From Blastococcus sp. TF02A-35 (GTDB lineage: Bacteria > Actinomycetota > Actinomycetes > Mycobacteriales > Geodermatophilaceae): DNA of 64,000 nucleotides. The notes under the pieces were generated by a model. The model saw nothing but the letters and a program-made list of their open reading frames with translations. It made no database searches and was not told the DNA's origin. This document shows, in pieces, positions 8,949 to 35,760 of the stretch. Every line of letters starts with the position of its first letter. Positions within the stretch are counted from its first letter, which is position 1. The stretch spans positions 1 through 64,000 of the forward strand of contig NZ_SPQP01000006.1 of the NCBI RefSeq assembly GCF_004571075.1, read 5' to 3'. The translations under genes and the position numbers were made by a program.

Positions 8949-8993
8949 GGGTGGAGCTGAGGGGACTCGAACCCCTGACCCCCACACTGCCAG
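8949..8993. repeat. attL: 45-bp copy of the tRNA-Ala 3' half
   Basis: Forty-five bases, from GGGTGGAGCT to ACTGCCAG, are identical to 35,716-35,760 in the same orientation. They comprise the tRNA-Ala acceptor 3' strand, T arm and anticodon arm up to the anticodon loop. Right of 8,993 the tRNA sequence stops (GGCGG in place of TGTGG), so this is a half tRNA left by site-specific integration and not a second gene. Confidence 0.92.
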
Positions 8994-9245
8994 GGCGGCT
9001 GAGTGGGGTCCAGGGCGGTACGCCAGAGTTCATTTGCGCAGGTCAGAAGGTTGCGTTGTCATCTGCGGACTCCTGCGGACGACCATGAATACCGTCGTCA
9101 GGCCACCATGGTGGCACCACACGGCAGCCGCCTGACCGACCGTTGAGCGCCGCCTGAGCAGCTGACGATCGGACGGCCTCCTCACCTCGGGGCTCGTGAT
9201 GCGCTCACCTGGACGATGCACGGCTATTTGGTCATACTTCCGACC

Positions 9246-9530
9246 ATGACGACTCTGTCGCTCGCGGACGCCAAGGCGCACCTGTCGGCCCTTGTGGCCC
9301 GGGTCAGCGGCCAGCACGAGCGGGTCTACGTGACGGTCCACGGCAAGCCGTCGGCCGTCCTGGTGGCGACGGAGGATCTCGAGTCGCTTGAGGAGACGAT
9401 CGAGATCCTGGCCGATGCCGAGACGATGCGGCGATTGCACGCCTCGGATACCGAGCTGGCCCGTGGCGATGTGGAGACGCGCGAGGAGCTGGACGCGGCC
9501 ATGCGTCGGCGCCTCGGCTCCGGTTCGTGA
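9246..9530 (+). CDS. Phd/YefM-type antitoxin
   Basis: A 94-residue protein. TTLSLADAKAHLSALVARV and the following VYVTVHGKPSAVLVATEDLESLEETI are the N-terminal dimerisation/DNA-binding fold of Phd/YefM antitoxins; the acidic C-terminus would wrap the toxin. The ATG at 9,246 has no Shine-Dalgarno site and sits 12 bases past a CATACT -10-like box, so translation may be leaderless. The toxin gene overlaps its stop (GTGA). It is the first gene inside the left end of the integrated element. Confidence 0.88.
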   Translation: MTTLSLADAKAHLSALVARVSGQHERVYVTVHGKPSAVLVATEDLESLEETIEILADAETMRRLHASDTELARGDVETREELDAAMRRRLGSGS

Positions 9531-9814
9531 CCGAGGAGCGGGCGGACTACGACCTAGCGATCACGCCGACCGCCCGCCGCCAGCTCGCCGAGAACCTGCC
9601 CGAGGCGGTCGCCGCGGCCGCATATAAGTTCATCACCGGCCCGCTGCTGGACAACCCCCATCGGGTCGGCAAGCGGCTTCGTCCCCCGCTCGAGGACCGG
9701 CACAGCGCGCGCCGCGGCACCTACCGGGTCATCTACCGCATTGACGAGGACATCCACACGGTGACCGTCGTCGATGTCGCCCATCGTCGAGATGCGTATC
9801 GCTCCGGCCATTGA
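9527..9814 (+). CDS. RelE-family toxin
   Basis: A 95-residue protein with the RelE/ParE fold: ITPTARRQLAENLPEAVAAAAYKFI, then RVGKRLRPPLEDRHSARRGTYRVIYRID and VTVVDVAHRRDAY. The basic RGTYRVIYRI strand and the C-terminal HRRDAY are the usual mRNA-interferase motifs. The GTG start overlaps the antitoxin stop, so the pair is coupled. It probably stabilises the element against loss from the attL side. Confidence 0.88.
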   Translation: MTEERADYDLAITPTARRQLAENLPEAVAAAAYKFITGPLLDNPHRVGKRLRPPLEDRHSARRGTYRVIYRIDEDIHTVTVVDVAHRRDAYRSGH

Positions 9815-9918
9815 CCACCTGTCGCTACGTTACTGCCGAGGACAGAATCACCAACCGCCAGATTGCGAGTTCGCTGGTGTGCGGTTCGCGGTTGTCCGCC
9901 CCCGTACGGATGTGCAGG

Positions 9919-10341
9919 TCAACGAGGCAGGCCGGTCGGGGGCGAACGGTGCTGGATGACCGTGAACGCCATGCTGTGGCACACACGCTGGCACACAACA
10001 CCACCAGTCGAGGCGATTGGCTGCCCTCCGCCCGGTCCGCGCCCTCGCCGTCTTTCCAGCCTGAGGCGGAAAAGCTCGTCAAGCCGATCGGCCAACCAGG
10101 CGAGCCGGGCCCGAATGGAGCGAGCCTGCAATCCCGCGCCGGCCGCGGTGAGGATCAGCGCGGTTCTTCGAGCGTCAAGCGTGGACGGAACACGCAGGAG
10201 ACCGGTCGATTGGGCTCGGTCGACGAGCCGACTGGCCGTGGAGGGCGCCACGTCGGCCACGCGGGCGACGTCGCCGATGGTGACTTCCTGGCTGGCGGCG
10301 GCCCCCCGAGCGCATGCCTCGACCACGAGCAGGCTCGACAT
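9919..10341 (-). CDS. MarR-type winged-helix regulator, possibly N-terminally truncated
   Basis: The core QEVTIGDVARVADVAPSTASRLVDRAQSTGLLRV with a following LDARRTALILTAAGAGL is the MarR winged helix and wing. The frame stays open upstream to about 10,430 (PDLWVWSAPSYKIITEDDAPVEM) without an ATG or GTG, so either ATG 10341 is used or the N-terminal dimerisation helices have been lost. The last 50 residues look like run-on into non-homologous DNA. No partner gene is evident. It lies between the left toxin-antitoxin pair and the fused zwf fragment. Confidence 0.55.
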   Translation of the reverse strand: MSSLLVVEACARGAAASQEVTIGDVARVADVAPSTASRLVDRAQSTGLLRVPSTLDARRTALILTAAGAGLQARSIRARLAWLADRLDELFRLRLERRRGRGPGGGQPIASTGGVVCQRVCHSMAFTVIQHRSPPTGLPR

Positions 10342-10431
10342 CTCGACCGGAGCGTCGTCCTCCGTGATGATTTTGTAACTGGGTGCGCTCCAGACCCACA
10401 GGTCCGGTGGACGGCCTTGCTCACCTAACAG

Positions 10432-10992
10432 TCAGACCACAGCGCCGTCCTCGCGACGCGGACTGGAGGTCCGCCGCCCGGCGGCGACCGGAGCCTCGGG
10501 CCGCGGCGGCCAGCGTCGGTCCAAAGCCACGGTGAGCGGGACGGCGACCGACACCGTGGAGATGGTGCCGGCGATGGTGCCGAGGATCAGAGCGAGGGCG
10601 AAGCCGGTCAACGAGTCGCCGCCGAGGGCGAGCAGGGCTGTGACGGTGGCCGCGAAGAGCGTGTGCGGGAGCGCGAGGTAGACGAGGACTGGCCCGTCGG
10701 CGCACCGCACGATCGGCCGCAGGTCCTCGGCGGAGGTGACGTCGGCGGCCACATACCGCAGCTGGCGGCACAACGCCGCCCGATGGGCGAAGTCGACCTC
10801 GGCGGCGTGCTCGGCGAGTGCAGCGGCAGCCTGCTGCCTGAAGGCGTCATCGTCCCCATCCTCACGGCCGACGCCGATGATGGTGAGGGCGTCGGGCAGT
10901 CGGCCCGCGCGCTGCAGATGCGCGAGGGCCGGCAGAAGGTAGCGCCTGCTCAGGTCACCGCCGGCACCGAGGAGCAACAGGGTCGAGGGCAC
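10432..10992 (-). pseudogene. zwf N-terminal fragment fused in frame to a SecF-like C-terminal tail
   Basis: Residues 1-120 match the NADP-binding half of glucose-6-phosphate dehydrogenase: LLLLGAGGDLSRRYLLPAL, IIGVGRED, YLALPHTLFAATVTALLA, parallel to the intact zwf at 23,332. The similarity then stops before the catalytic EKPFG and DH motifs. It continues in frame as GGDSLTGFALALILGTIAG and a further Pro/Arg tail, which looks like the last transmembrane helices of SecF/RND-type proteins. The start GTG 10992 has an AGGTAGGA site. The product cannot be an active dehydrogenase. I read this as a deletion-fusion pseudogene ending the minus-strand operon; translation may still occur. Confidence 0.7.
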
Positions 10993-11035
10993 CGGTCCTA
11001 CCTCTCCGCGTCTTGGTCCGCTGCGCCGGGGCCGC

Positions 11036-11125: not shown

Positions 11126-11148
11126 GGTCGTTCCTCCGTCGTAAGCGT

Positions 11149-12459
11149 TCAGACCCAGGCGAACCGTTCGGTGTGGATGCGGTCGGCGGGCACGCCGATC
11201 GTGGGAAGAGCGGCTTCCATCGCGTCGAGCATCGGGTTGGGGCCGCAGGCGAAAAACTGGAACCGCCGGTACCCGGAAGGCAGGTGGCGGCGCAGCACGT
11301 CGACGGTGACGTACCCGGTTTCCCCAGTCCAATCCGAAGGTGGCTGCTCGAGCACGTGCACGACCCGCAGGTTCATCCGGTCGGTCAGCTCGTCGAGTTC
11401 CGCACGGAACGGGATACTGTCCCAGTCCCTGTTGGCGGCGAAGAGCACCACGGGCCGGACGTCGCCGCGATCGGCCAGCGTCCGAACCATGCTCATCGCC
11501 GGGGCGAGACCGACGCCGCCGGCGATCAGGACGTACCCGGCACCCTCGTACTGGTCGATCGAGAACGCCCCATGCGGGCCATCGACGTAGACGGTGGTGC
11601 CCGGTGCCACCCCGCCCACGGTGGAGGTGAAGTCGCCGGCGGCCTTGATGGCGACGGCGATCGTGCCGCCGTCCTCGGCGCTGGAGGCCAGGGAGAAGGG
11701 GTGGGAGGTGACGGTGAACGGGGACCGGCCGACGGTGATCCAGGCGAACTGCCCCGGGGCGAACTGCAGTCCGTCGTGCCCCTCGGCGCGGAGGGCGAGG
11801 ACGGTGGTGCCTCCGGGCTCGGGGACGACCCGGTCCACGGTCCAGGGCCGGCGGCGCAGCCGCAACGGCCGCAAGATCCGCACCCAGATCAGCAGCCCGA
11901 CGAACGTCGCCGACATCAGGCCCCAGAGCACCTGCTTCCCAACGCTGTCGACGTAATAATTGACCAGCAACACATGAATCAGGGCGGCGAGGACCGCAAC
12001 GACCGCCAGGACGGCGTGCGTCAGCTGCCAGGCCTCGTAGGACAGCCACAGCCGCCGGCGCCACACCGACGTCGCTACCAGGACGAGCAGGGCGAGCGCC
12101 GCCGCCACCCCGAACCGGACCCGCCACGGCGTGTCCGGAGAGAACAGGGCGGCGACCAGGCCCCAGTCCGCCGACAGCGCCACATGGACCATGACGAAGG
12201 TCAGTCCGATGTAGCCGATGTGCCGGTGGAACTGGACCACCGCGTCGGTGCCGAACGGCTCAGCCACCGCGCGGATGCGGGCGACGAGCGCGAACTCCAC
12301 CCCCATCAGCGCCAGCCCGACAAAGCCGAGCGCGACGGAGAAGTCGGTCCAAAAGCCCTGTCCCGCCCGGTTGGTGCCCACCAGCGCGAACACCAGCGGA
12401 GCCAGGCAGATCCCGACGAACACCGCCAGCCAGACGATCCCGCGGGCGACCGGCCTCAT
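11149..12459 (-). CDS. Ferric-reductase-like membrane flavoprotein (FRE/NOX type)
   Basis: A 436-residue protein. Residues 1-210 form about six membrane helices with paired His (FHRHIGYIG, HVALS, QLTHAVLAV, ALIHVLL) expected to hold two hemes, as in the ferric reductase/NADPH oxidase superfamily. The C-terminal half is a ferredoxin-NADP reductase module: the FAD motif HPFSLASS, the NAD-binding GGVGLAPAMSMVRTL and the terminal FFACGPNPMLDAME. It would pass electrons from NAD(P)H across the membrane to iron, oxygen or quinone. It overlaps the upstream flippase-like gene by ATGA in the operon running from 16,057 to 10,432. Confidence 0.85.
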   Translation of the reverse strand: MRPVARGIVWLAVFVGICLAPLVFALVGTNRAGQGFWTDFSVALGFVGLALMGVEFALVARIRAVAEPFGTDAVVQFHRHIGYIGLTFVMVHVALSADWGLVAALFSPDTPWRVRFGVAAALALLVLVATSVWRRRLWLSYEAWQLTHAVLAVVAVLAALIHVLLVNYYVDSVGKQVLWGLMSATFVGLLIWVRILRPLRLRRRPWTVDRVVPEPGGTTVLALRAEGHDGLQFAPGQFAWITVGRSPFTVTSHPFSLASSAEDGGTIAVAIKAAGDFTSTVGGVAPGTTVYVDGPHGAFSIDQYEGAGYVLIAGGVGLAPAMSMVRTLADRGDVRPVVLFAANRDWDSIPFRAELDELTDRMNLRVVHVLEQPPSDWTGETGYVTVDVLRRHLPSGYRRFQFFACGPNPMLDAMEAALPTIGVPADRIHTERFAWV

Positions 12460-13526
12460 GCCGCGCTCCCTGGCGTGCTACCGGCGAGCCCACCGGCCTT
12501 CCGGCGGGGTCCGTATCGGGAGCGGAAGAGCAGGTAGGCGACCGGCCCGGCGAGGATGGGCAGCCAGTAGGAGGCCAACCTATACATCAGCGTGGCCAGG
12601 ACCGCCTGACCGGTGGCCACGCCGGCGAGCGTGAGGGTTCCGTACAGGCCGGCCTCGACGAAGCCGAGCCCGCCAGGGGTGATGGGGATCATCCCCAACA
12701 GCAGGGCGGAGGCGAAGACCAGCAGCACCAGCGAGGGGTGCGGACGGCTGCTGCTGGCGGCCAGGGCCGCCAGCAAGGACAGGTAGTCGAAGCCGAGCTT
12801 GCCGGCCACGGCCAGCAGCGCCTTCCACCAGCCGGCGCCGAGTACCGCGCGCACGGCGTTGCGCTCCTGCAGCAACCGCTGCGGCAGCCCCGTTGACGGC
12901 GGACGGCGGCGGACCAGCCGGTTGCGCAGGGACTGCACGGCTCCGGCCGCGGCGACCAGCGGCCGGTCGGCGACCAGCACGGCCGCGCTGAGAGCGGCGA
13001 CCAGCACGAAGACGGCCCCACCGAGGATGGCTGACTGGAGCAGGGTGCGGGGTACGTAGACGCCGGTGAGCACCGCGGGCAGGGCCAGCACCGGCAGGAA
13101 GAGGACGCTGGCGGTCTGCAACACGGAGAAGGCGGTCAGCCCGGTGACCGCGGTGGCCGGTTCGATGCCGGCGCGGCCGAGCATGCGGAACTGCAGCGCC
13201 GCGCCGGCGGCCGCGCCGCCGGGCACGACCCGGCTGAACGCGTTACCCGACAGCTGGGCGGTCGCCACCGGGAACCAGGCGGTGGTGCGCAGCGCCATCC
13301 GCTGCAGCACGAGCAGGCAGCAGACGCTGGCGACCTGCCCGGTGACGACGGCGGCGAACCACCCTGGGGCGATGTCGGACAGCTTCGGCCAGGACGCGAA
13401 GACCTCGGTGACTTGCGGCGCGAACAGGTACAGCGCTACCCCCATCACCGTGAGCAGGAGCACCCGCCCGACGCGGATCCGCCCGACCGGCGTCCGGGTG
13501 ATCCGCTCAGCTCGCGTAGCCCCCAC
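12456..13526 (-). CDS. UPF0104 / LPG-synthase-type transmembrane protein (flippase-like)
   Basis: A 356-residue protein with seven to eight hydrophobic segments. It carries the family motifs GNAFSRVVPGGAAAGAALQF and MIPITPGGLGFVEAGLYG, which define the lysylphosphatidylglycerol-synthase transmembrane/UPF0104 family. It lacks the C-terminal aminoacyl-transferase domain of MprF, so it is a stand-alone membrane module, perhaps moving lipids or glycolipids. The GTG start at 13526 lies in a C-rich stretch and is not strongly supported; a slightly shorter start is possible. It overlaps the next gene (ATGA). Confidence 0.8.
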   Translation of the reverse strand: MGATRAERITRTPVGRIRVGRVLLLTVMGVALYLFAPQVTEVFASWPKLSDIAPGWFAAVVTGQVASVCCLLVLQRMALRTTAWFPVATAQLSGNAFSRVVPGGAAAGAALQFRMLGRAGIEPATAVTGLTAFSVLQTASVLFLPVLALPAVLTGVYVPRTLLQSAILGGAVFVLVAALSAAVLVADRPLVAAAGAVQSLRNRLVRRRPPSTGLPQRLLQERNAVRAVLGAGWWKALLAVAGKLGFDYLSLLAALAASSSRPHPSLVLLVFASALLLGMIPITPGGLGFVEAGLYGTLTLAGVATGQAVLATLMYRLASYWLPILAGPVAYLLFRSRYGPRRKAGGLAGSTPGSAA

Positions 13527-13547
13527 CCCCCCAGTCGGCCGGCCCGC

Positions 13548-15479
13548 TCACGGGCGACCGCGCCGGCCAATGGGGCTGAAGCGGCCGGGGGCGGCCCCGC
13601 CGGCCCGGATCAGGTGCATGACGGCGTTGATCAGCGCCAGGTGAGAGAATGCCTGCGGGGTGTTGCCCAAATGCCGGCCGCTGTGCGCGTCCAGCTCCTC
13701 GGCGAGCAGCCCCAGGTCGTTGGCGTGGTGCAGCAGCAGCCGGCACAGGTCGTCGGCGCGGGCGGTCTCGCCGATCTCCACCAGCGCGGAGACCAGCCAG
13801 AACGAGCAGATGACGAAGGTGCCCTCCTCGCCGGACAGGCCGTCGTCGGTCTCCTCGACCCGGTAGCGCAGCACCATCTCGTCCTCGGTGAGCTCGTCGG
13901 CGATCGCCAGCACGGTGGCCCGCGCCCGCGGGTCCTCGGGCGGCAGGAAGCCCATCAGCGGAATTAGCAGCGCCGAGGCGTCCAGCGCGGTGCTGCCGTA
14001 GAACTGGGTGAACACGCCGCGTTCATCGACGCCGGAGGCGCAGACGTCGGCGTGGATCTCCTCGGCGGCCGCGCGCCAGCGCGCGGCCTGCTCAGTGGCG
14101 CCGCAGAGGTCAGCCAGCTTGGCGCCGCGGTCGGCGGCCACCCAGCAGAGCACCTTCGAGGAGGTGAAGTGCTGCAGCGCGCCGCGGACCTCCCAGATGC
14201 CGGAATCGGGATGCCGCCAGTGCACCAGCGCCTGCTCGACCTGCCGTTCCACCAGCGGCCACAGCCGGTCGGGCAGGGCGCCCACGGCGGTGGTGTGCAG
14301 GTAGATGGAGTCCAGCAGCATACCCCAAACGTCGTGCTGGGCCTGATCGTAGGCGCCGTTGCCGATCCGCACCGGACGGGAGCCGGCGTAGCCGGACAGG
14401 TGCTCGAGCTCGACCTCGGTCAGCGTCCGCTCGCCGCCGATGCCGTACATGATCTGCAGTCGGTCGGTCTCCCCGCCGGCGACCTCGGCGATGAAGTCGA
14501 AGAAGTCGCCCGCCTCCGCGGTGAACCCGAGCGTGTGCAGGCCCCACAGCGTGAAGGCGGCGTCGCGGATCCAGGTGTAGCGGTAGTCCCAGTTGCGCTG
14601 CCCGCCGAGCTCCTCGGGCAGGGAGGTGGTCGCTGCGGCGACCATCGCGCCGGTGGGCGCGTACACCAGCCCCTTAAGCGTCAGGGCGCTGCGCTGCATG
14701 TGCGCCCGCCAGGGATGGTCGGGAAAGGTGCCGCCGGCCAGCCAGTCTCGCCAGTACGTGCCCGTGTACTCAAGCCGCTCGTGTGCCTCGGCCACCGAGC
14801 CAGGTGGTGCGGCGCCGGCCCAGGACAGGGCAACGACGGCCTCCTCACCGGCGGTCAGGACGGTGCGCCAGCCCACGCGGGCGCCCTCCGCCAGTAGCGG
14901 CCGGTCACTGGTCAGACGCAGCGAGAGCCCTGAAACGGGGTCGCTCGCCGACGCCTGTCCTTGCGTGGCGGGATCCAGCTGCCAGGCCGGCGCATGGCGG
15001 CCGTAGTCGAAGGCGGGGGTGCAGTCCACGCTCAGCTCGACACTGCCATGTTCGCAGCGGGCGGTGCGCAGCAGGACGTGCGCGGCCCGCTGGCCTGAGG
15101 CCTCGCGGCGGTAGGGCGGCAGGTCGCCGCAGGCGTCGTCGTCCCAGGGGGCGACCAGCAGCGCGTCGGTCACCGTCAACCAGCCGGAGCTTGTCATGTA
15201 CGTCGTCTCTAGCACGAGCGTGCCCGGCAGGTAGCGTCGGGTGACTGGTACCGAGGTCTCCGTGGGGGCCAGCGTGAAGGTGCCGGCGTCGCGGTCGAGG
15301 ACTGCGGCGAACAGGCTCGGCGAGTCCATCCGCGGCGCGCACAGCCACTCCACCGCACCGCGGGAGGTCACCAGGGCGATGGTCTCCCCGTCGGCGAGAA
15401 GCGCGTAGTCCTCGATCGGCGGAAAGCCCTGGGTGCGGTCGACATGTGTGTCCCGGGGCGAAGAGTCCGGACGGCTCAT
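13548..15479 (-). CDS. GH15-family glycoside hydrolase (glucoamylase/trehalase-like), copy A
   Basis: A 643-residue protein. An N-terminal beta-sandwich (about 1-255) precedes the (alpha/alpha)6 barrel. Family motifs: NWDYRYTWIRDAAF (296-309), GNGAYDQAQHDVWG, the general acid in HPDSGIWEVRG (Glu430) and the general base in SGEEGTFVICSFWLV (Glu551/552). No signal peptide, so it acts in the cytoplasm, releasing glucose from trehalose or maltodextrin. It overlaps the PCuAC gene upstream by ATGA. A diverged paralogue lies at 24,699-26,525 in the same genetic context. Substrate is not predictable from sequence alone. Confidence 0.88.
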   Translation of the reverse strand: MSRPDSSPRDTHVDRTQGFPPIEDYALLADGETIALVTSRGAVEWLCAPRMDSPSLFAAVLDRDAGTFTLAPTETSVPVTRRYLPGTLVLETTYMTSSGWLTVTDALLVAPWDDDACGDLPPYRREASGQRAAHVLLRTARCEHGSVELSVDCTPAFDYGRHAPAWQLDPATQGQASASDPVSGLSLRLTSDRPLLAEGARVGWRTVLTAGEEAVVALSWAGAAPPGSVAEAHERLEYTGTYWRDWLAGGTFPDHPWRAHMQRSALTLKGLVYAPTGAMVAAATTSLPEELGGQRNWDYRYTWIRDAAFTLWGLHTLGFTAEAGDFFDFIAEVAGGETDRLQIMYGIGGERTLTEVELEHLSGYAGSRPVRIGNGAYDQAQHDVWGMLLDSIYLHTTAVGALPDRLWPLVERQVEQALVHWRHPDSGIWEVRGALQHFTSSKVLCWVAADRGAKLADLCGATEQAARWRAAAEEIHADVCASGVDERGVFTQFYGSTALDASALLIPLMGFLPPEDPRARATVLAIADELTEDEMVLRYRVEETDDGLSGEEGTFVICSFWLVSALVEIGETARADDLCRLLLHHANDLGLLAEELDAHSGRHLGNTPQAFSHLALINAVMHLIRAGGAAPGRFSPIGRRGRP

Positions 15480-16057
15480 GACGGGTCGGCCGGCGAGCTG
15501 GAGACCGCCGCCGGGTCGTAGGTCGCCACCGGCACCTGCAGCGTCACCGACCCGGCGCCGGTGAAGGTGAAGGTGATCTCCACGCTGGTCCCGCTGCGCA
15601 GCTCCTCTCTGAGCCCGGTCAGCTCCAGGTGCGGGCCGGCCACGTCCTGCAGGTCCGCCACCCCGCCGGCCGGCACCGGCACGTCGATCGACGACGTCGC
15701 GGCCTCCCCGCCCTGGCGGAGGACGACCTCGGCGGCCTCCTCGCTGCTGACAGCGGATAGCGTGTCGTCGGCGTCGCCGTCGTTGGCCACCGTCAGCAGC
15801 AGCTCCGCGCCGCCTTCGGGCGTGTGGGTGCTGCCCCGCTCACCCGGCGAGGCGATGTACACGTGCAGCAGCCGCAGGTCACCGACCTGCCCCTCGACGC
15901 TGTCGAGATCCGGACGGCCCACGCTCGGACTCAACGGCGAGCCGTGCTCGGCCTCGTCCTCGCCGCACCCTGCCCCCACCAGTCCGACGATCAGCAGCAG
16001 CAACAGCAGAGGAGCGGCGGTGGGAACCCAGCCCGTGCCGCGATCGACATGGAGCAT
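15476..16057 (-). CDS. PCuAC-like (DUF461) secreted/lipoprotein copper-chaperone homologue, copy A
   Basis: A 193-residue protein with a hydrophobic export signal and a VGAGC lipobox at about residue 31. The core follows the PCuAC fold: RLLHVYIASPGERGSTHT, ELLLTVANDGDADDTLSAVSS, VPVPAGGVADLQDVAGPHLEL and a final ITFTFTGAGSVTLQVPV. The copper ligands His and Met of the family are mostly gone (HLEL in place of HLML, no upstream Met), so copper binding is doubtful. Start ATG 16057 has GGAGGGG upstream. It is the first gene of a six-gene minus-strand operon. Confidence 0.8.
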   Translation of the reverse strand: MLHVDRGTGWVPTAAPLLLLLLIVGLVGAGCGEDEAEHGSPLSPSVGRPDLDSVEGQVGDLRLLHVYIASPGERGSTHTPEGGAELLLTVANDGDADDTLSAVSSEEAAEVVLRQGGEAATSSIDVPVPAGGVADLQDVAGPHLELTGLREELRSGTSVEITFTFTGAGSVTLQVPVATYDPAAVSSSPADPS

Positions 16058-19127: not shown

Positions 19128-19131
19128 CCCC

Positions 19132-22260: not shown

Positions 22261-22353
22261 CCGGACCGCGCGGGCGGACGGCCGGGTCGACGGCGACCTG
22301 GCCGTGCCGGTCTGCGGCCCGTTGGCCGATCGACGCCGACGTCAGACTGCTAA

Positions 22354-23321: not shown

Positions 23322-23331
23322 TAAGCGCAGT

Positions 23332-27168: not shown

Positions 27169-28644
27169 TCAGGTGGTGATGAAGCCGGTCCACAAGCCGA
27201 CGACGCCGGTGATGCCGGCGGCCACGATCACGGCGCAGAGCACCATCTCGGTGGGGCTGAACAGCCGGCGGCTGTGCTCGCTGCGCGCCTTGACGTACAG
27301 TAGGGTGGCCGGGGCGAGAATCACCGTGGCCAGCAGCAGGAACTTCAGGCCGGCGGCCTCGAAGAGGAACAGCGTGTAGGCGGTGGCGATCCCCGCGATG
27401 ATCGCCTCCTTCCGACGCGTCCTGGCGGTCACGTCCTCGTAGCCCTCCCCCGTGAGGCCGAGCTTCAGCGCGTACGCGGCGGTCAGGAAGTAGGGGATCA
27501 GCGCCAAACAGGTGGACAGATCGAGCATGAAGTTCAGCGCATCGGTCAGGACCAGCGTCGCGGCGAGGAGGCCCTGGACCGCCAGCGAGCTGACGACGAG
27601 TGCCGTGATCGGCGTGGCCTTGTCGTTCTCCCTACCCAGGAAGGCCGGGAGGTCCTCATTGCGGGCCGGGATGTACATCACCTCGGCCGCCATCAAGCTC
27701 CAGGCGAGGTAGGCGCCGAGGACGGAGACGATGACGGCCGCGCTGATGAACCAGCGGCCCCAGTCGCCGACGACGGACTCGAAGAGGCCGATCATCGACG
27801 GCTGGCGGGTCGCGGCAATCTCCGGCTGCGGCATCACCCCGTAGCTCGACAGCGTCACCAGGGCGAAGATCGACAGCACGCTCAGGAAGCCCAGGACGGT
27901 CGCCCTGCCGACGTCTTGGCGCCGCTTGGCGTAGCGCGAGTAGACGCTGGCGCCCTCGATGCCGATGAAGACGAACGTCGTGATGATCATGGTGTTGCGG
28001 ATCTGCTCGTCGAGCGAGCCCAGGTCGCCGTAGCCGGTGGCGATCCAGTTGTCGGCGAAGACGCCGGCGTCGAACGCCACGAACAGCACGACGATGAAGG
28101 TGAGGATCGGCAGAATCTTGAACACCGTCACGATGCGGTTGACGATGGCGGCGTCACGAACGCCCCGCGCGATCAGGTAGTGGAAGAGCCAGACACCGAC
28201 CGTGCCGAGCGCCACCGCGAGGACCGTGTCGCCGTCACCGAACACTGGGAAGAACGCGCCGATGGTCGCCGTGATGAAGATCCAGTAGAAGGCGTTGCCG
28301 GAGACCGTGCTGGCCCAGAAGCCGATCGCCGAGTTGAACCCGACGTAGTCGCCGAACCCGGCCTTGGCGTAGATGAAGACCCCGGAGTCCAGCTGGGGCT
28401 TGCGGATCGCGAGGTTCTGGAACACGAAGGCGAGCATCAGCATGCCCGTCCCCGCGATCGTCCAGGCGATCAGCGATCCGAGGACGCCGGTTGCCACGCC
28501 GAAGCGCGCCGGCAGCGAGAAGACGCCCGCGCCGACCATGCTGCCGACCACCATCGCGGTGAGGGTGGGCAGCGACATCTTTCCCGGCGTCGCGACCGGG
28601 GCGTCGGCAACCGCGCCGGCAGCCCGTGGGGCCGTGTCGACCAT
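27169..28644 (-). CDS. arcD: Arginine/ornithine-type amino-acid antiporter (APC family)
   Basis: A 491-residue protein with about twelve membrane segments. The N-terminal SLPTLTAMVVGSMVGAGVFS has the GSMVGAG substrate-carboxylate motif of basic amino-acid antiporters, and helix 6 has FVFIGIEGASVYSRYAKRR, the arginine/ornithine or agmatine antiporter pattern. With arginine deiminase two genes upstream it would exchange arginine for ornithine or citrulline. I start at ATG 28644 (AGGAG upstream), not at the longer frame. Operon: STAS, arcA, NhaC-like fragment, this gene, PCuAC. Confidence 0.82.
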   Translation of the reverse strand: MVDTAPRAAGAVADAPVATPGKMSLPTLTAMVVGSMVGAGVFSLPARFGVATGVLGSLIAWTIAGTGMLMLAFVFQNLAIRKPQLDSGVFIYAKAGFGDYVGFNSAIGFWASTVSGNAFYWIFITATIGAFFPVFGDGDTVLAVALGTVGVWLFHYLIARGVRDAAIVNRIVTVFKILPILTFIVVLFVAFDAGVFADNWIATGYGDLGSLDEQIRNTMIITTFVFIGIEGASVYSRYAKRRQDVGRATVLGFLSVLSIFALVTLSSYGVMPQPEIAATRQPSMIGLFESVVGDWGRWFISAAVIVSVLGAYLAWSLMAAEVMYIPARNEDLPAFLGRENDKATPITALVVSSLAVQGLLAATLVLTDALNFMLDLSTCLALIPYFLTAAYALKLGLTGEGYEDVTARTRRKEAIIAGIATAYTLFLFEAAGLKFLLLATVILAPATLLYVKARSEHSRRLFSPTEMVLCAVIVAAGITGVVGLWTGFITT

Positions 28645-28649
28645 CGCAG

Positions 28650-28904
28650 TCACTCCTGTCCTGGGGCTCGGCCGAGCGCCACCGGCTCGACCTTTTCGAT
28701 CTTGAAGCCGACGACTCCGTACAGAACGCATAGCGCCGCGATCGCGGCGCATCCCACCAGAGCCACCTGAAGTGGTCCGTCCAGCGCGTCGAAACCGAAC
28801 AGCACGAGGGAACTTGCAATCAGGACCGCCAGGGCGACGAGGTCCAGCAGAGCATCGACGAGCAACGTCGGCCGTCGCGCCGTCAGGACATCTCGCTCTT
28901 CCAT
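28650..28904 (-). CDS. Short two-span membrane protein resembling the N-terminus of NhaC
   Basis: An 84-residue ORF with a GAGAGGG site before ATG 28904. PTLLVDALLDLVALAVLIAS and the following GPLQVALVGCAAIAALCVLYG resemble the first two helices of NhaC-type Na+/H+ antiporters, which normally continue for about 400 more residues. It stops six bases before the start of the antiporter gene. It may be a truncated remnant or a genuine small membrane protein kept in the arginine operon. Confidence 0.5.
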   Translation of the reverse strand: MEERDVLTARRPTLLVDALLDLVALAVLIASSLVLFGFDALDGPLQVALVGCAAIAALCVLYGVVGFKIEKVEPVALGRAPGQE

Positions 28905-29029: not shown

Positions 29030-30304
29030 TCAGACGTCGACGGGGTCGCGGATGATCGGGCAGGTCATGCAGTGCCCGCCGCCACGACCCCGGCCCAACT
29101 CCGCGCCGACGATTGTGATCACTTCGATGCCGGCCTTGCGCAGCACGGTGTTGGTGTAGGTGTTGCGGTCGTAGGCGAAGACCACCCCTGGGGCGACGGC
29201 GACGACGTTGTTGCCGCTGTCCCACTGCTGGCGCTCGTTGGCGTACTCGTCACCCCCGGTCTCCAGCACCCGCAGCTCGGACAGACCCAGCGCGTCGGCG
29301 ACGACGTCGGGAAAGGTCCGCTTCTCCTCGGTGACCTCGACCGGTTCCTTGTCGCCGGGCCGGAGGCTGAAGGTATGGATGCCGTCGACGATCTCCCGGT
29401 AGGCGGTGGCGACGTCACGGTCGGCGAAGGTGAACACCGTGTCCAGGTGCATGGCGGCCCGCATCTTGGGCATGCCGGCGACGATCACTCGGGTGGCGGC
29501 GCCGTGCTCGAACAGCGCTGCAGCGAGCTGGGTGATGGCCTGCCGGGAAGTGCGCTCGCTCATGCCGATGGCCACCGCGCCGTTGCCGATCGGCATGACG
29601 TCGCCGCCCTCGATGGTGGCCAGGCCCCAGTCCCGCTCGGGATCGCCCCACCACACCGTGGCGCCGGCGAAGTCGGGGTGGAAGGTGTAGATGGCCTTGT
29701 AGAGCAGCGTCTCGTCGTGCCGGGCCGGCCAGTACAGCGGGTTGAGCGTGAGCCCGCCGTAGATCCAGCAGGTGGTGTCGCGGGTGTAGAGGGTGTTCGG
29801 CAACGGCGGCATCAGGTACTCGCGGACGCCGAGCTGCTCCCGGGCGAGCGCCAGGTACCCGGACCGGAAGTCGGCGGGCAGGTCGACCGTGGCCAGCCCA
29901 CCGATGAGGAGCTCTGCCAGCCGGCGGTCGTCCAGGGACTCGAGGAATGCCCGCGTCCCGTCGACGAGCCCGAGGCCGACCTCGTTGGCCGTGACCTTGC
30001 GGTCCAGCAGCCACGCCTTCGCCCCGGGGATGGCCATCGTCTCGGTCAGCAGGTCGTGCAACTCCACGACCTCGACACCGCGACTGCGCAGCTTGGCGAC
30101 GAAGTCGAAGTGGTCCCGGCGGGCATTGTCGACCCAAAGGACGTCGTCGAACAGCAGGTCGTCGCAGTTGCGTGGTGTGAGTCGGGAATGGGCCAGACCC
30201 GGTGCGCAGACTAGGACCTTGCGAAGCACGCCGACCTCGGAGTGCACGCCGTAGGCGGCGACCGGCACGTCTGCGCCCGTCCTGGGAATAGTCGTATCGG
30301 TCAT
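29030..30304 (-). CDS. arcA: Arginine deiminase
   Basis: A 424-residue enzyme turning arginine into citrulline and ammonia, which raises pH and feeds ATP synthesis by carbamate kinase. Motifs: [12 protein letters not shown], the Asp/His pair in [11 protein letters not shown], and [17 protein letters not shown]. The catalytic Cys412 is in the C-terminal [15 protein letters not shown] 30304 is chosen because it overlaps the STAS gene stop (ATGA) and follows AGGAG. No ornithine carbamoyltransferase (arcB) or carbamate kinase (arcC) is present in the window, so either they are elsewhere or the pathway serves deimination only. Confidence 0.92.
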
Positions 30305-30768
30305 CGTCCGCGCGCTCCTCGCTTGAGAGAGGACCGGTGGCCACCGGACCAAGGCGGGACGAGGTGCCCCCACGGGAGGAGAGCTAGTTCGACGAGTCGC
30401 TCGACAGCCGCGGCTGTCGGAGGTAGATCGCCCTCAATAGGCTCGGACGCGCCGGCCGCCTTCGGTATTAGCGGGAGATGAGGCGTGGGGTTGACCAGCC
30501 GTATTCGGCACGCACGCGTGGTGGCAAGCGTCTGTGCGCAGACGGAAACCCGCAGCCCTTCATCATCGCAGAACGAGATCGCGGAGCCGTCCACCGCGAC
30601 GGTTGAATTGCCTGTGAGAGGCAGTACAGCCAGTGCATCAAACAGCCAACTGGCGCGACGGCGGTCGAGATCGCCAATGGGTCCGACCCACCCCGCGAGT
30701 GCATCCACCCACAAGACGCGGTGATCAAAGGTCTCGGCGGTGGGCGGCTGAGCAGTAACCAGACGCAT
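30301..30768 (-). CDS. STAS-domain protein (anti-sigma-factor-antagonist-like)
   Basis: A 155-residue protein. The fold strands [40 protein letters not shown] and [19 protein letters not shown] follow the STAS pattern. At the site where anti-anti-sigma factors carry a phosphorylated Ser (DSSG), this protein has DDEG, so it cannot be phosphorylated there and may mimic the phosphorylated form. ATG 30768 has GGAGG seven bases upstream. It is the first gene of the arginine operon, which suggests a regulatory input for the operon or for sigma-factor control. Confidence 0.7.
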
Positions 30769-31485
30769 GAACTTGCCTCCGGGTGCCGGAGGCCTAAGCC
30801 CTATCCGGGCGCTCCCGCACACAATGTATGTGCTGAACGGCCCGATGCTCGACCGATTTCACGGTAGAGCGGCAACCCCCGACGCGCAACTGGACGCGGC
30901 CAGCAGGTACCTGCCGCAACGCGTCCGATGATCAAGGCAGGACCGCGAGGGCAACCCCATACGTGCGATGACGTCGTGAACGCCAGCCCGCGACCGTGGA
31001 CAGGATCACGACAGTGCCCGTGTGGCGGATCGACGGCAATCGCCTCCGCCTACACGCCACGCCACGCCATCAGCCATCAGTGGCGTCCGGTGAGCAAGGT
31101 CCCCTCACGTATGTCATCGGTTCCCATGCTCAGCCGCTGCCCGTAGGGGACGGCCGTCCTTCTCATTCATCACACGGTGAACCGCCCCGGGGCGGGACAG
31201 GCAGCGGGAATGCGGCTGCGGCGATCCAGCGGCAAGAGCCTCAACGACGACCTTGCCGAGGGGGGGCCACAGGCGGACACCCCTCCCAGGGGCTCCCACC
31301 GAGGCCTTCCACCGAACCGTCAGCAGCTCGCCATCCAACCCGTCACTCGCCCCCTACCCGACCGATCGACCAGCACTGGAGATCTCCCCTCCCAATCAAG
31401 ATCACGAGCCGACACACCTCATGCACTTGCGGTCCTGGAACTCGTGGTGACGAGTTACTGCAGGGTCGTCTGCCGACTCTGTGCC
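30769..31485. other. Long non-coding stretch upstream of the arginine operon
   Basis: About 700 bases without a supportable gene. It should hold the promoter of the minus-strand STAS-arcA operon at its left end. Its right end contains one arm (31,399-31,459) of an imperfect inverted repeat whose other arm lies at 32,151-32,212. Open frames here lack ribosome sites and recognisable domains. Confidence 0.5.
31399..31459 (-). repeat. Left arm of a long imperfect inverted repeat
   Basis: The sequence ATCACGAGCCGACACACC (within 31,399-31,419) recurs in inverse orientation at 32,192-32,212. A second conserved block, GTGACGAG (31,447-31,454), lies 27 bases away, exactly as CTCGTCAC does in the right arm. 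Between the blocks, TGCA and TTC/ACG positions also match. The arms enclose the zinc-ribbon gene at 31,486. Confidence 0.7.
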
Positions 31486-31974
31486 ATGGGAACCATCGGA
31501 ACCCCCGAGCACCGGGCCCGCCGCCGAGCTCGTGAGCAGCAACGGCGGCAACACGTCGCCCAGGCACCGACCGTGTCCGCCGATGCAGAACAGACCGGCG
31601 CTTCGGCGGAAGGGCGCGAACGGCGCACCGCCGCGACGACCTGCGGATGGTGTGCTGGGCCGATCACGCCGCGCGGCCGGGGGCCGATCCCCAAGTGGTG
31701 CTCGGCCACCTGCCGACACCGAGCCTGGGAGCAGACCCGCGCGGCGGCCTCCGGCCGATCCGCGGTGCAGGTGGTCGAACGGCGGGTGCAAGTCGGCGTC
31801 CCCCTGGAGCCGACCCGGCGGGACTGGCCGGCACTGCTCGGCGAGCTGACCCGGCAGTTGGACGACGGCCGCATTTACGACCGTGACCTGCCCGGCCTCA
31901 GTCGGTCACTACAGCCCGTACTGGAGGCCTACCGCTGGCGGGCCGGCCGGACCGGCGCCCCCGACGTGCGCTGA
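31486..31974 (+). CDS. Small zinc-ribbon-like protein of integrative elements
   Basis: A 162-residue basic protein. The centre holds CGWCAGPI and, 13 residues further, WCSATCRHRAWEQTRA, a four-Cys zinc-binding pattern seen in small proteins near actinobacterial integrases. The N-terminal 45 residues are Arg/Gln-rich; the C-terminal part, DWPALLGELTRQLDDGRIYD, is helical. Function unknown; DNA binding is likely. The start ATG 31486 lacks a clear ribosome site; an upstream GTG in the same frame is possible. It lies within the inverted repeat, two genes before the integrase. Confidence 0.6.
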   Translation: MGTIGTPEHRARRRAREQQRRQHVAQAPTVSADAEQTGASAEGRERRTAATTCGWCAGPITPRGRGPIPKWCSATCRHRAWEQTRAAASGRSAVQVVERRVQVGVPLEPTRRDWPALLGELTRQLDDGRIYDRDLPGLSRSLQPVLEAYRWRAGRTGAPDVR

Positions 31975-32150: not shown

Positions 32151-32212
32151 GCAGTTCTCGTCACAACGGATTCGCTCGGCCTGGATGCACCAGGTGTGTC
32201 GGCTCGTGATCT
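32151..32212 (+). repeat. Right arm of the long imperfect inverted repeat
   Basis: GCAGT, CTCGTCAC (32,157-32,164) and GGTGTGTCGGCTCGTGAT (within 32,192-32,212) are the inverse of the left arm at 31,399-31,459, with the same 27-base distance between the two main blocks. Identity is about 65 percent overall by eye, but perfect over 21 bases in the main block. Confidence 0.7.
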
Positions 32213-32725: not shown

Positions 32726-32911
32726 GCCGTCCCGCTGTCGCGGCCGGCCTAGCGGCCGCACGGAGGCCGCGGCCCCTGGCACACGAAGAAAACCGGAGAA
32801 AATCAGGAGATTGCCGCGGCAGTGTCACCAATCGGCCGAAAATGGCGCCTTCTCCAGGTGGGTTGCCGCGCCGAATGCCGGCGCACGAGGCCAGCCGACG
32901 AGGAGGGCGAC

Positions 32912-33217
32912 ATGGGCCACGCGCAGCGACCTCGGGAGCCGGCGCCCAGCGAGCCGCTGCTGCTCACCCCCGAGGAGGCCGCTGAGCTGCTCCGCGTCGG
33001 CCGCACCACGATCTACACCCTCATGAAGGCCGGCGACCTGCGCCCGGTGCACATCGGACGCAGTTGCCGCCTCCCCCGGGCTGAGCTCGAGCGCTACGTC
33101 CGAGGGCTCGAGGCTCCCGCGCCGAGCGCGCCGGCTCACCCGCGCCGGCACCGGCGAACCAGCACGAGTCAGCGCGGCTTGTTCGAGCTCACCTCCGACC
33201 CGGTGGAACGAGCCTGA
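32912..33217 (+). CDS. Excisionase / helix-turn-helix DNA-binding protein
   Basis: A 101-residue protein. LLLTPEEAAELLRVGRTTIYTLMKAGDL and RPVHIGRSCRLPRAELERYV form a MerR-like HTH_17 domain typical of excisionases and recombination directionality factors. The tail is basic. ATG 32912 has AGGAGGG six bases upstream. It lies 82 bases before the integrase gene in the same direction, the standard xis-int order. Confidence 0.85.
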   Translation: MGHAQRPREPAPSEPLLLTPEEAAELLRVGRTTIYTLMKAGDLRPVHIGRSCRLPRAELERYVRGLEAPAPSAPAHPRRHRRTSTSQRGLFELTSDPVERA

Positions 33218-33299
33218 CCTGTGGATTCCCAGCACCACAGGTCAGCGCGCACCACGACACTCGACGCCGAGTCTGAACCAGCGACGCAGGGAGCGACCG

Positions 33300-34499
33300 A
33301 TGACGGACGCCAAGGAACCAGACAGCACGCCCGCGCGGCGTCGACGAACGTTGGAGCAGAGGAAGCGTGCCAGCGGCGAGTCCTCCATCTACCAGGACGA
33401 GGACGGCCGATGGCACGGCTTTGTCTCCATGGGGAAGAAGGAGAACGGCCGGCGCGACCGACGCCACGCCTCCGGCGCCAAGCGCGCCGACGTGGTGTCC
33501 AAGGTCCGTGCCCTCGAGGCCAAGCGGGACGCTGGGATGGTGGACGCGGCCGGCCGCGCACCCACGGTCGGTGAGTGGCTGGACCACTGGCTGGACAACA
33601 TCGCGGCGCGGAAGGTCCGCGCGCGGACTCTAGAGAGCTACCGCAGCACCGTGCGGCTGCACCTGCGCCCGGGCATCGGGCACCACCGGCTGGACCGGCT
33701 GCAGCCAGAGCACCTGGAGCGTCTCTATGCCGCGCTCAGCGACAAGGGCCTGGGCCCGGCCTCGATCCTGCGCGCCCATCGGGTCCTGTCCCGCGCCCTG
33801 CGTATCGCCTCTCAGCGCGGCAAGGTCGCGCGCAACGTTGCCACCCTCGTCGATCCGCCTGCGGTCAGGCGACCCGAAACCGCCCTGCCGCTGACCGCGC
33901 CGGAGGTCAAGCAGGTCATGGCCGCCGCGCTGACCCACCGCAACGCGGCCCGGTGGACCGTGGCGCTGGCCGTCGGGTTGCGTCAGTCCGAAGCCCTCGC
34001 GCTGCGATGGAGCGACGTGGACCTGGACAACGGCACGCTGAGCGTCCGACGCGGACTGCACCGGGTCAGCGGGCGGGGGCTGATCTATGAGGAACCGAAG
34101 GCCGACCGCAGCCGCCGCAACCTGGCGCTGCCCACACCACTCGTGCAGGCGTTGAGGGCGCACCGGGCGGCCCAACTCGAGGAGCGGATCGCCGCCGGCT
34201 CGTTGTGGGAGGACCACGACCTTGTCTTCGGGCAGCCCAACGGCCGGCCAATCGAACGCAAATCGGACTGGCGAGCCTGGAAAGCCCTCCTCCAGGAGGC
34301 GGGCGTGCGCGAGGTCCGCCTGCACGACGGGCGGCACACGGCGGCGACCCTGCTGCTGTCCGAGGGCGTGCATCCGCGGGTCGTCATGGAGGTGCTTGGC
34401 CACGCACAGATGCGCACGACGACGGACACCTACAGCCACGTCATGCCGGCCCTCGGCCGGGACGCCGCGGACCGCATGGGCCAGGCGCTGTGGGACTGA
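33300..34499 (+). CDS. int: Site-specific tyrosine recombinase (integrase)
   Basis: A 399-residue phage-type integrase. An N-terminal arm-binding part (about 27-85, SSIYQDEDGRWHGFVSMG) precedes the core-binding SAM-like domain (90-185) and the catalytic domain. Catalytic residues: Arg228 (VGLRQSEALALRW), His342 and Arg345 (LHDGRH), His368 (LGHAQM) and Tyr378 (TYSHV). All are intact, so it should be active. It catalyses integration into, and with the excisionase excision from, the tRNA-Ala 45-bp core that lies 1.2 kb to the right. Confidence 0.95.
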   Translation: MTDAKEPDSTPARRRRTLEQRKRASGESSIYQDEDGRWHGFVSMGKKENGRRDRRHASGAKRADVVSKVRALEAKRDAGMVDAAGRAPTVGEWLDHWLDNIAARKVRARTLESYRSTVRLHLRPGIGHHRLDRLQPEHLERLYAALSDKGLGPASILRAHRVLSRALRIASQRGKVARNVATLVDPPAVRRPETALPLTAPEVKQVMAAALTHRNAARWTVALAVGLRQSEALALRWSDVDLDNGTLSVRRGLHRVSGRGLIYEEPKADRSRRNLALPTPLVQALRAHRAAQLEERIAAGSLWEDHDLVFGQPNGRPIERKSDWRAWKALLQEAGVREVRLHDGRHTAATLLLSEGVHPRVVMEVLGHAQMRTTTDTYSHVMPALGRDAADRMGQALWD

Positions 34500-34677
34500 C
34501 GTGGTGCACTGCGTGTGCTCCGGTGGTTGCCACGCTGGCTTAGCGGCGGCGCTTCGCCTTGCCGATAAGCGCATCAGACTCGCGAATCAGGCATCTCGAG
34601 TGGGCGAGTTGGCGGCTCGACGGTCGTAGAGGGCGTTTTCGACTTGCGCCCCCGCGGCAACCCGGCACAGCGCGCGC

Positions 34678-35034
34678 TCACCCGACAAGGTTGGCCAAGT
34701 CCAATTCGATGTCTTGACCATCCACCGTCACGACGATGCGTGGATGGTCGCCAGCGGCCGTCAAGTACTGCGTCAGCGTGGATAGGAGCATGTCGTGCTG
34801 ACGCTCCAGGCGACTGATGACCGTCTGGGCCACCCCCATCTGCGTAGCCAGTGCGACCTGCGTCAGATCGGCGGCCTTCCGGATCTCTGCGAGACCTGCT
34901 GCGTGGACTCGGTCAGTATCGACCATCTCGGCCCGGACCTGTGCGGAGCGCTCCGCCACACCGGGGATGGAACGGGCCCGCGCCATCTTCTCCGCAGCGC
35001 GCTCGGCCCCGACGAACGTGGCCTGTTCACTCAT
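34678..35034 (-). CDS. XRE-family antitoxin (HigA-like)
   Basis: A 118-residue protein whose C-terminal half has a helix-turn-helix: LTQVALATQMGVAQTVISRLE. The last 30 residues (PRIVVTVDGQDIELDLANL) form a beta extension. ATG 35034 has GGGAG upstream and overlaps the toxin gene end by eight bases. Toxin-first order is typical of higBA systems. It would repress its operon through the palindrome at 35,455. Confidence 0.82.
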   Translation of the reverse strand: MSEQATFVGAERAAEKMARARSIPGVAERSAQVRAEMVDTDRVHAAGLAEIRKAADLTQVALATQMGVAQTVISRLERQHDMLLSTLTQYLTAAGDHPRIVVTVDGQDIELDLANLVG

Positions 35035-35437
35035 CACTGTCTCCCTCGGTACGGGTGCGAAGCAGGTAGCTCTCGATAGCGGCGTCGGCCCGCGGCCCAA
35101 CGCTGTCGTAGAAGACATCGCCCATGCGGGCCTTGTCGGCGCCGAACAACACCAGGACGACCTCGCCGGGGCGATCGGGCGGAAACCAGACGATCAAGCG
35201 GATCGCGGTACCAGGGCTGAAGGGATGGGCCACCCGCCAGACCTGGTGGCGGCGCGACTGGTGAACCCGGCGCAGCGTCGGCGTGTCCGCATCCGGTACA
35301 GCTGTGAGTTCCTGCAGGACGCCGAGCTCGGCGTCGACGAGTGCGAGCTGCTCGAACGAACGTCGATCACCACCTTCGGCGCGCTCGATCAACTGGTCGT
35401 ACCAGCGATCGAATTCGCCGGTCCAGTCGATCAACAC
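35027..35437 (-). CDS. HigB/RelE-type toxin
   Basis: A 136-residue protein: IDWTGEFDRWYDQLIERA at the start, then VHQSRRHQVWRVAHPFS and TAIRLIVWFPPDRPGEVVLVLF, a pattern of phage-derived Gp49/HigB-type ribonuclease toxins. The start is GTG 35437 (TTG 35434 is next). There is no Shine-Dalgarno site, but a TATATT -10 box lies six bases before the GTG, so the mRNA is probably leaderless. First gene of the pair at the right end of the element. Confidence 0.75.
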   Translation of the reverse strand: MLIDWTGEFDRWYDQLIERAEGGDRRSFEQLALVDAELGVLQELTAVPDADTPTLRRVHQSRRHQVWRVAHPFSPGTAIRLIVWFPPDRPGEVVLVLFGADKARMGDVFYDSVGPRADAAIESYLLRTRTEGDSDE

Positions 35438-35443
35438 GACATG

Positions 35444-35470
35444 AATATAACACAGGAGTACTAGTACTCC
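35444..35470 (-). promoter_or_regulatory. higBA promoter and 16-bp palindromic operator
   Basis: GGAGTACTAGTACTCC (35,455-35,470) is a perfect 16-base palindrome. It overlaps the spacer/-35 region upstream of a TATATT -10 box (35,449-35,444), which is six bases before the GTG start of the toxin gene. The HigA-like antitoxin is the likely ligand. Confidence 0.65.
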
Positions 35471-35677
35471 AGCATACTCAGCGGGCGCCCTGGACCCTCG
35501 CAGCCGACAAGCCGGCTAATGACGGCCGCCGTCTCACCCCACGACCGGGTTCCCTCCCGCGCGAGGTGGGCGGGCCGAGCGCCGGGTGCGCACGGCGGAC
35601 CGGGTGGGACGCGCTGTCCGCCTGACCCTGGCACCGCATCTGCACCGGTGGCCACCACGCTGGCACCAAACACGACT

Positions 35678-35708
35678 CAGGCCGCCCCTCCGGAGGAGGA
35701 ACGGCCTG
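35678..35708. terminator. Element-borne tRNA-Ala terminator
   Basis: CAGGCCG (35,678) pairs with CGGCCTG (to 35,708) with an inner CCTCC/GGAGG stem. It follows the intact tRNA-Ala (read leftward) and has clear sequence similarity to the chromosomal hairpin at 8,910-8,943. The element thus supplies a replacement terminator together with the tRNA 3' half. Confidence 0.6.
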
Positions 35709-35715
35709 GTCATCG

Positions 35716-35760
35716 GGGTGGAGCTGAGGGGACTCGAACCCCTGACCCCCACACTGCCAG
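35716..35760. repeat. attR: 45-bp repeat within the intact tRNA-Ala
   Basis: Identical over 45 bases to 8,949-8,993 and in the same orientation. It covers the tRNA 3' end through the anticodon loop. Here the sequence continues into the rest of the tRNA (TGTGG...), whereas the left copy does not. Confidence 0.92.

Follow-up and report, generated by a model that had tools for sequence, protein, structure and literature searches.

How does a genomic island cross from one bacterial genus to another when Pfam recognises no transfer gene among 26 of its 27 open reading frames (ORFs; 24 called and three added by hand, the 55-aa ORF at 21510-21677 being left out)? This question is raised by a 26.8 kb element in Blastococcus sp. 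TF02A-35 (GTDB genus g1; assembly of 3,930,523 bases in 87 contigs), lying in a stretch of 64,000 nt (contig NZ_SPQP01000006.1, positions 1-64,000; hereafter the window). An earlier note on this DNA had described an integrative element in tRNA-Ala(GGC) whose means of movement was left open. We consider it likely to be a functional, recently active and relaxase-free mobile genomic island, which would integrate itself and be carried between cells by a helper. Below, genomes bear G numbers, contigs C numbers and loci L numbers.

The tRNA-Ala site and the copies of the element

The boundaries of the element are marked by a 45-bp direct repeat whose two copies (8949-8993 and 35716-35760) are identical; the window contains no further exact direct repeat of at least 30 bp. 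As the earlier note had claimed, this repeat corresponds to the 3′ half of the tRNA, its right copy lying inside tRNA-Ala(GGC) (35717-35791, minus strand), which is the sole tRNA of the window and the only Rfam match at gathering threshold between 8800 and 36000. Both 45-bp copies are followed on the tRNA strand by strong terminator-like hairpins (z -5.5 and -6.6). Since the native terminator is left outside while the element brings its own, integration rebuilds both the tRNA and its terminator. Composition also differs between the two sides of the repeats, with a third-position GC of at least 0.94 in two of the 24 called ORFs between them and in 36 of the 37 outside.

Comparison of the tRNA-Ala locus in relatives, as proposed with the first description, reveals an empty site in G005, whose right flank scores highest of all but that of the window itself. 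On its contig C89 the left flank (22191-23555) meets the right flank (23485-24524) through a single intact tRNA. Taken with the flanking repeat, the intact tRNA and the near-identical copies that two further GTDB genera have at this tRNA (see below), this upholds the earlier assignment and identifies the element as a tRNA-targeted integrative element. In G012, G013 and G002 the two flanks share a contig and are separated by other DNA, approximately 8, 21 and 10 kb long, respectively. Genus g1 has 19 integrase matches at E <= 1e-60, in 17 genomes. Compared by eye, 18 of them stand no more than 1.3 kb from an att core, all but that of G009, and further att copies occur in several stretches (G103, G132, G007, G123, G013 and G002). 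By these counts the tRNA-Ala site is an integration hotspot.

The integrase is 100% identical (rounded) in three of 112 genomes of the family, these being TF02A-35, G023 (Blastococcus sp. TF02A-26, NZ_QOHG01000006.1; g2) and G121 (Geodermatophilus sp. DSM 45219; g5). Both TF02A strains are Blastococcus by NCBI name, though they belong to separate GTDB genera. In G023 and G121 the whole element is found at the same tRNA and is approximately 99.9% identical to that of the window outside two short tracts. The three whole copies share 26,808 gap-free columns with 113 differing sites, 36 of which lie outside the tracts (14 in the window, 13 in G023 and nine in G121). The other 77 are inside, and 76 of these are private to the window copy (39 in terC and 37 at the right end). 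These tracts, whose limits we drew from pairwise comparison of the copies, are probably recombination imports. The surrounding DNA is far less alike, as the right flanks next to the tRNA are 78.8% (G023) and 82.2% (G121) identical to the window, and 75.7% and 72.6% further out, with 77.2% for the left side of G023 further out.

TF02A-35 and TF02A-26 are both listed from the granite of 'Temple wall outside', Fort Tiruchirappalli, Tamil Nadu, and appear in the same paper (PMC9516006), which brings to mind an assembly artefact or cross-contamination within one study or laboratory. However, in the window as in G023 each junction runs into flanks specific to the host, there are 128 alignment positions in 8900-35836 at which these two copies differ, and Geodermatophilus DSM 45219 stands outside the 11 isolates of that paper; such an origin is very improbable indeed.

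A fourth and partial copy, located through its 100% identical zinc-finger ORF, is present in G018 (g1), where it covers window positions 8912-32753 at 99.7-99.8% identity. G121 and G018 have in common an identical 1442-bp insertion at window 31424-31429 (L132/L133 in G121, L149 in G018), which we take to hold an IS110-type frame, and two SNPs. The only supported split, of three characters, sets the window and G023 against G121 and G018, and none of the characters over 8949-32700 unites the g1 copies of the window and G018. Because the copies thus group against genus lines, by two SNPs and the shared insertion, the element has moved recently and more than once, with at least two moves across genus lines needed. 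Such movement could also follow from the uptake of free or vesicle DNA, with subsequent integrase-mediated or homologous insertion; the lack of recognised transfer genes agrees with this, and the two window-private tracts suggest homologous recombination with related DNA. Nevertheless, the near-identity begins at attL (its right end is blurred, as it runs into the conserved tRNA and some 45-90 bases beyond), and we regard this route as unlikely.

Transfer genes, mobility module and candidate cis sites

The earlier note saw no phage or conjugation genes and no transfer gene, and the Pfam search agrees for the 26 ORFs scanned. No relaxase, coupling protein or type IV secretion system was recognised, TrwC being the relaxase family searched by name. 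PF01580 (FtsK-like TraB) has no match in the element (8949-35760), while two loci occur elsewhere in the host genome, which by size and domain number read as FtsK and EccC, and each of 11 other genomes checked has matches. PF08751 (TrwC/MOBF relaxase) is likewise without a match in the element but has three in the host genome (two of them short) and from one to 12 in five other genomes, such MOBF-type matches being numerous in some genomes of the family (12 in G007). Nor was a Rep family found among those 26 ORFs, though a Rep of an undescribed family could escape Pfam. By the tests made, the element is not an actinomycete integrative and conjugative element (AICE), an integrative and conjugative element (ICE) or a canonical integrative and mobilizable element (IME), no TraB, Rep, relaxase, coupling protein or type IV secretion system being recognised. 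It was right to call the means of movement open, and the question has sharpened to one of recent movement without a recognised relaxase, TraB or Rep.

It may be asked whether the element is instead a decayed AICE remnant, incapable by now of transfer on its own and moved solely through cis-mobilization, with a complete element standing in tandem with it at this tRNA. The hotspot with its tandem att copies (G007, G103) fits this, as do the copies in G121 and G018, where the element abuts the integrase sequence of another element. The integrase has its best plasmid match (40.8% identity) in a 14.6-kb Saccharopolyspora endophytica record, and Frankia elements without tra or rep have been termed remnants or mobilizable integrating elements (PMC3218068). 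In contrast, the integrase, excisionase and zinc-finger ORFs are open and conserved, at least two recent cross-genus moves have to be accommodated, and no FtsK-family match lies near the tRNA-Ala site in G007, G103 or G121 (a PF01580 search that left out G018). Decay of this kind is therefore an unlikely account of the island.

A helper phage might alternatively package the 26.8-kb circle, as with a phage satellite or by generalized transduction. The size would presumably fit a capsid, and the integrase is assigned to the broad phrog_1 family. Against this, Pfam recognised no terminase, capsid or other packaging or structural family in 26 of the 27 ORFs, and PHROGs, run on 10 of the 27 ORFs, returned no structural families but those for integration, regulation and DNA binding, a RelE-type toxin, a TerC-like membrane protein, a weak endonuclease match (the integrase) and families of unknown function. 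Relatives of the integrase are found in two viral contigs at 44% and 33% in a search confined to close relatives, and its best phage record stands at 42.9%. Phage carriage is hence quite unlikely. PADLOC on 10 ORFs gave weak matches only (HTH, reverse-transcriptase-protease and desaturase models).

The genes that would serve the island's own integration are in place. An intact integrase and excisionase near the intact tRNA had been claimed, and in both the frame is open, with the catalytic boxes of the integrase, which we take to be R, HxxR, GH and Y, all visible in its alignment to 3nkh. The two genes are 1.2-2.8 kb away from the tRNA and are separated from it by a toxin-antitoxin-like pair. 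In same-genus relatives the integrase mostly lies no more than about 140 bp from the att region (by eye), the space here being taken up by this helix-turn-helix (HTH)/toxin pair (34540-35595).

Integrases 83-90% identical to that of the island occur in six genomes (G103, G014, G117, G100, G132 and G011), all of which also possess the excisionase. The zinc-finger ORF lies 0.6-2.0 kb from the integrase on the same contig in five of these; in G011 the integrase contig ends and the ORF is on another contig. The cargo proteins of the window are unmatched (E <= 1e-8) in the fetched stretches of G103, G014, G117, G100 and G132. Pfam on part of the ORFs there identified metal transporters in G014 (10 ORFs), an aromatic hydroxylase and amino-acid transporters in G100 (six ORFs), and methyltransferases with a beta-lactamase-family protein in G103 (10 ORFs). 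Both att copies fall within the fetched stretch in G103 and G132 only, so that the outer ORFs of G014 and G100 may belong to the host. In its cargo G011 departs from the others, having deiminase and antiporter at 84% and PCuAC at 70% identity. Going by these stretches, the relatives keep a small backbone (integrase, excisionase and zinc-finger ORF) with other cargo. The G011 genes are on C26 (L143; Blastococcus xanthinilyticus), a contig with an att core, where deiminase, antiporter and PCuAC at 70-84% make up a related set of cargo genes within a different element.

The zinc-finger ORF has relatives in 73 of the 112 genomes (E <= 1e-10); a structure model built from six sequences has a mean pLDDT of 59.7, too low for a fold search. 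Around this ORF a 21-bp sequence occurs twice, inverted and free of mismatches. With up to one mismatch it has 47 matches in 30 of the 112 genomes (reversed control 0) and is thus rarer than the ORF itself. Of these matches, 28 lie within 1 kb of one of 52 entered copies of the ORF, a selection from a longer list of relatives, at set distances. Those downstream of the ORF stand 215-403 bp away in the opposite orientation to it, and those upstream stand 65-182 bp away in its own orientation. The remaining 19 are either more distant or belong to contigs that have no entered copy. The 1442-bp insertion of G121 and G018 stands a few bases from the upstream site.

A second candidate was met when eight non-coding stretches of the element were compared by similarity with 13 relaxase loci. 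Three matches, to L174, L181 and L180 and all at the excisionase (xis) leader, scored higher than any of ten shuffles (moving two-base blocks only); no match to L169, the relaxase element of the host itself, rose above them. The xis-leader motif was found in five of the 13 loci, four by its core (<=5 mismatches) and the fifth (L175) by eye. Among the 13, a matching HTH excisionase-like ORF was found in these same five only, the motif lying 39-45 bp ahead of it in four cases. As a scan with the core also gave 13 matches at unrelated places (four being one place in four copies of the element; reversed control 1), the claim for this motif depends on its position before xis and not on the match alone. 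It is a possible candidate for an origin of transfer (oriT).

Cargo and proposed mechanism

The features of the element are listed in Table 1. All cargo families named in the earlier note were recovered, namely PCuAC and GH15 (two each), zwf (one intact and one truncated as a zwf-SecF fusion), arginine deiminase, TerC, an HtrA-like protease, Usp and DUF1269. With PCuAC and GH15 each present twice, a single cassette seems to be present in duplicate within the cargo, zwf being broken in one copy; the zwf-SecF fusion ORF is kept across the aligned copies with one SNP and no gap.

Table 1. Positions of genes, sites and sequence tracts in the window
Feature	Position	Strand	Remarks
Native tRNA terminator hairpin	about 8912-8945		outside attL; same context in empty-site G005
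attL	8949..8993	.	45-bp copy of tRNA-Ala 3′ half
Phd/YefM-type antitoxin	9246..9530	+	PF02604 1.8e-18
ParE/RelE-type toxin	9527..9814	+	PF05016 1e-7
MarR-like regulator	9919..10341	-	MarR_2 26.5 bits, just under Pfam cut-off 27
Truncated zwf N-terminus fused in frame to SecD/SecF C-terminus, relic	10432..10992	-	
Ferric-reductase-like flavocytochrome	11149..12459	-	
Lysylphosphatidylglycerol-synthase transmembrane-domain protein	12456..13463	-	
GH15, trehalase-like	13548..15479	-	NF041084 2.7e-108, under equivalog cut-off
PCuAC copper chaperone	15476..16057	-	
FAD-dependent amine-oxidase-type enzyme	16577..18067	+	
DUF1269 protein	18585..19127	+	
HtrA-like trypsin-PDZ protease	19351..20250	+	frame open from 19063
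TerC/Alx-family membrane protein	20354..21397	+	
Window-private SNP tract in terC	20369-20983		39 sites
Universal stress protein (Usp)	21793..22260	+	
IS4/5-type transposase	22465..23304	+	
Glucose-6-phosphate dehydrogenase (zwf)	23332..24702	-	NF009492 525 bits, over cut-off
GH15, trehalase-like	24699..26525	-	
PCuAC copper chaperone	26600..27151	-	
Arginine-ornithine-type antiporter (ArcD-like)	27169..28644	-	TIGR00905 over cut-off; TIGR03810 under its cut-off
Small hydrophobic ORF	28650..28904	-	no family match
Arginine deiminase (ArcA)	29030..30268	-	TIGR01078 491.7 bits, over cut-off
STAS-domain protein	30301..30822	-	
21-bp conserved site, upstream copy	31399..31419	+	about 67 bp before zinc-finger ORF
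CxxC zinc-finger ORF of mobility module	31486..31974	+	
21-bp conserved site, downstream inverted copy	32192..32212	-	
xis-leader motif	32823..32853	+	also in elements encoding MOBF relaxases
Excisionase (xis)	32912..33217	+	HTH_17; phrog_66; open frame
Tyrosine integrase	33300..34499	+	open frame; alignment to 3nkh
Putative antitoxin, HTH protein	34678..35034	-	
Putative toxin partner	35027..35437	-	no family match; proposed from overlap with HTH gene
Window-private SNP tract, right end	35354-35685		37 sites; tract set as 35354-35700
Replacement tRNA terminator hairpin, element-borne	35678..35715	-	
attR	35716..35760	.	within intact tRNA-Ala(GGC) gene (35717-35791)

Both GH15 proteins resemble the archaeal trehalase TreH1 (E 2.7e-108 and 1.1e-87), both under the equivalog cut-off. 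As zwf adjoins one of them, a route from trehalose through glucose to NADPH is a reasonable guess, for which a kinase step would be needed. G6PD-C loci outside the element number one in the host TF02A-35 and two in the relative G005, which is without the element. The best carbamate kinase match of the host is poor (37.8 bits, versus 312-340 bits in G011, G121 and G023, all below the 358-bit cut-off), and arginine deimination in TF02A-35 may consequently serve ammonia production rather than ATP.

In the mechanism proposed, integrase and excisionase would excise a circle joining 35715 to 8949 and keeping one 45-bp copy, and the toxin-antitoxin pairs at both ends would prevent loss of the element. 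A resident conjugative or mobilizable element would then recognise a cis site of the island and carry the circle between cells; we infer this mode of crossing from the lack of any recognised relaxase, TraB or Rep on the island. The cargo would act as a survival kit, with the trehalase-like GH15 enzymes supplying glucose to glucose-6-phosphate dehydrogenase and so NADPH, with arginine deimination and an antiporter of the ArcD type, and with functions for copper handling alongside HtrA, Usp and TerC. The host genome does have a possible helper element at L169 (G000:C42, 4137-10590), where an integrase adjoins a 1219-aa MOBF-type relaxase and a gene which, from its start, is presumably glutamine-synthetase-like.

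Several points weigh against a helper-carried survival island. No near-identical shared helper was detected when one 14.4-kb query, the host relaxase region, was compared with six genomes (<=90% identity elsewhere). The similarity search leading to the xis-leader motif exceeded its shuffles only slightly (45.7 versus 41.0 bits), and the core (<=5 mismatches, 250 bp before xis) is seen in eight of 21 relaxase-free relatives and undetected in the other 13, one of which (G100) shows a diverged form by eye. The simplest meaning of this motif would be a shared promoter or operator of xis. As regards the copies, the G018 contig stops before xis and int, and a search of the G018 genome gave no matching integrase. 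The function of the cargo is predicted from sequence, and the host's weak carbamate kinase match, given above, does not favour an energy-yielding arginine pathway.

A bolder proposal is that actinobacterial islands of this type have a parasitic mobilization code of their own, composed of the zinc-finger protein, the paired 21-bp site and a xis-leader site shared with MOBF elements, with excision and transfer triggered and powered by those elements, and that they amount to a transmissible desiccation and energy-stress kit passing across genera on the same stone. This we advance as a doubtful idea, made less probable by the 13 of 21 relaxase-free relatives in which the xis-leader core is undetected.

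Comparison with known systems

Geodermatophilaceae are hardy bacteria of stone and desert. The presence of one stress island, at approximately 99.9% identity, in separate GTDB genera, two of its carriers being reported from a single temple wall, would imply that bacteria living on bare rock can pass survival traits to one another as a unit. Its three complete copies, its related family and the two candidate cis sites also make it a concrete system for studying how integrase-only islands cross between cells in Actinobacteria. No account of this element was found among the papers listed, as judged by titles and abstract openings, and in the paper on the stone isolates (PMC9516006) the words 'island', 'mobile' and 'horizontal' have 0 occurrences. 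New beyond the first description are the empty site, three further copies (one partial), the evidence for repeated recent transfer, the conserved small backbone and the two candidate cis sites.

The element shares a horizontally moving stress cargo with an HtrA/DegP-type protease with tLST, although only as a functional analogue. The latter is found in Proteobacteria and is generally flanked by transposases or phage-derived genes (PMC8290217), and its dna-hsp20-clpG core is absent from the Pfam matches here. Insertion at a tRNA 3′ end, a tyrosine integrase and plug-in cargo are features in common with AICEs and their remnants (pSAM2-like; Frankia Fean1457, Fcci0407, Fcci1144 and FeuI5809). However, the Frankia remnants lack either rep or traB (PMC3218068), whereas neither is recognised in this island, the copies of which show very recent spread. 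DAICEs and tandem accretion are treated in PMC9513070.

Integrative elements of Geodermatophilaceae with MOBF relaxases (for example G023:C51, G121:C5 and C10) also have the xis-leader motif before an HTH excisionase-like ORF and, in four of five cases, a tyrosine integrase nearby. Unlike the island, these encode a MOBF protein of 929-1214 aa; their integrases are 27-29% identical to its own and its zinc-finger ORF is unmatched in them.

Relaxase-free IMEs have been reported from Firmicutes and Proteobacteria, among them islands of 18-33 kb, mainly in Vibrio, with an integrase, a recombination directionality factor (RDF) and an ICE-like oriT (PMC5704250). The MGIVflInd1 family resembles the present element in having its own tyrosine integrase and RDF and no conjugation proteins, within that size range (PMC5704250), but the host here is actinobacterial and the oriT a candidate only, the likeness being one of size and gene content. 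By this analogy, it is as these relaxase-free islands (PMC5704250) do that the element of TF02A-35 would appear to work most.

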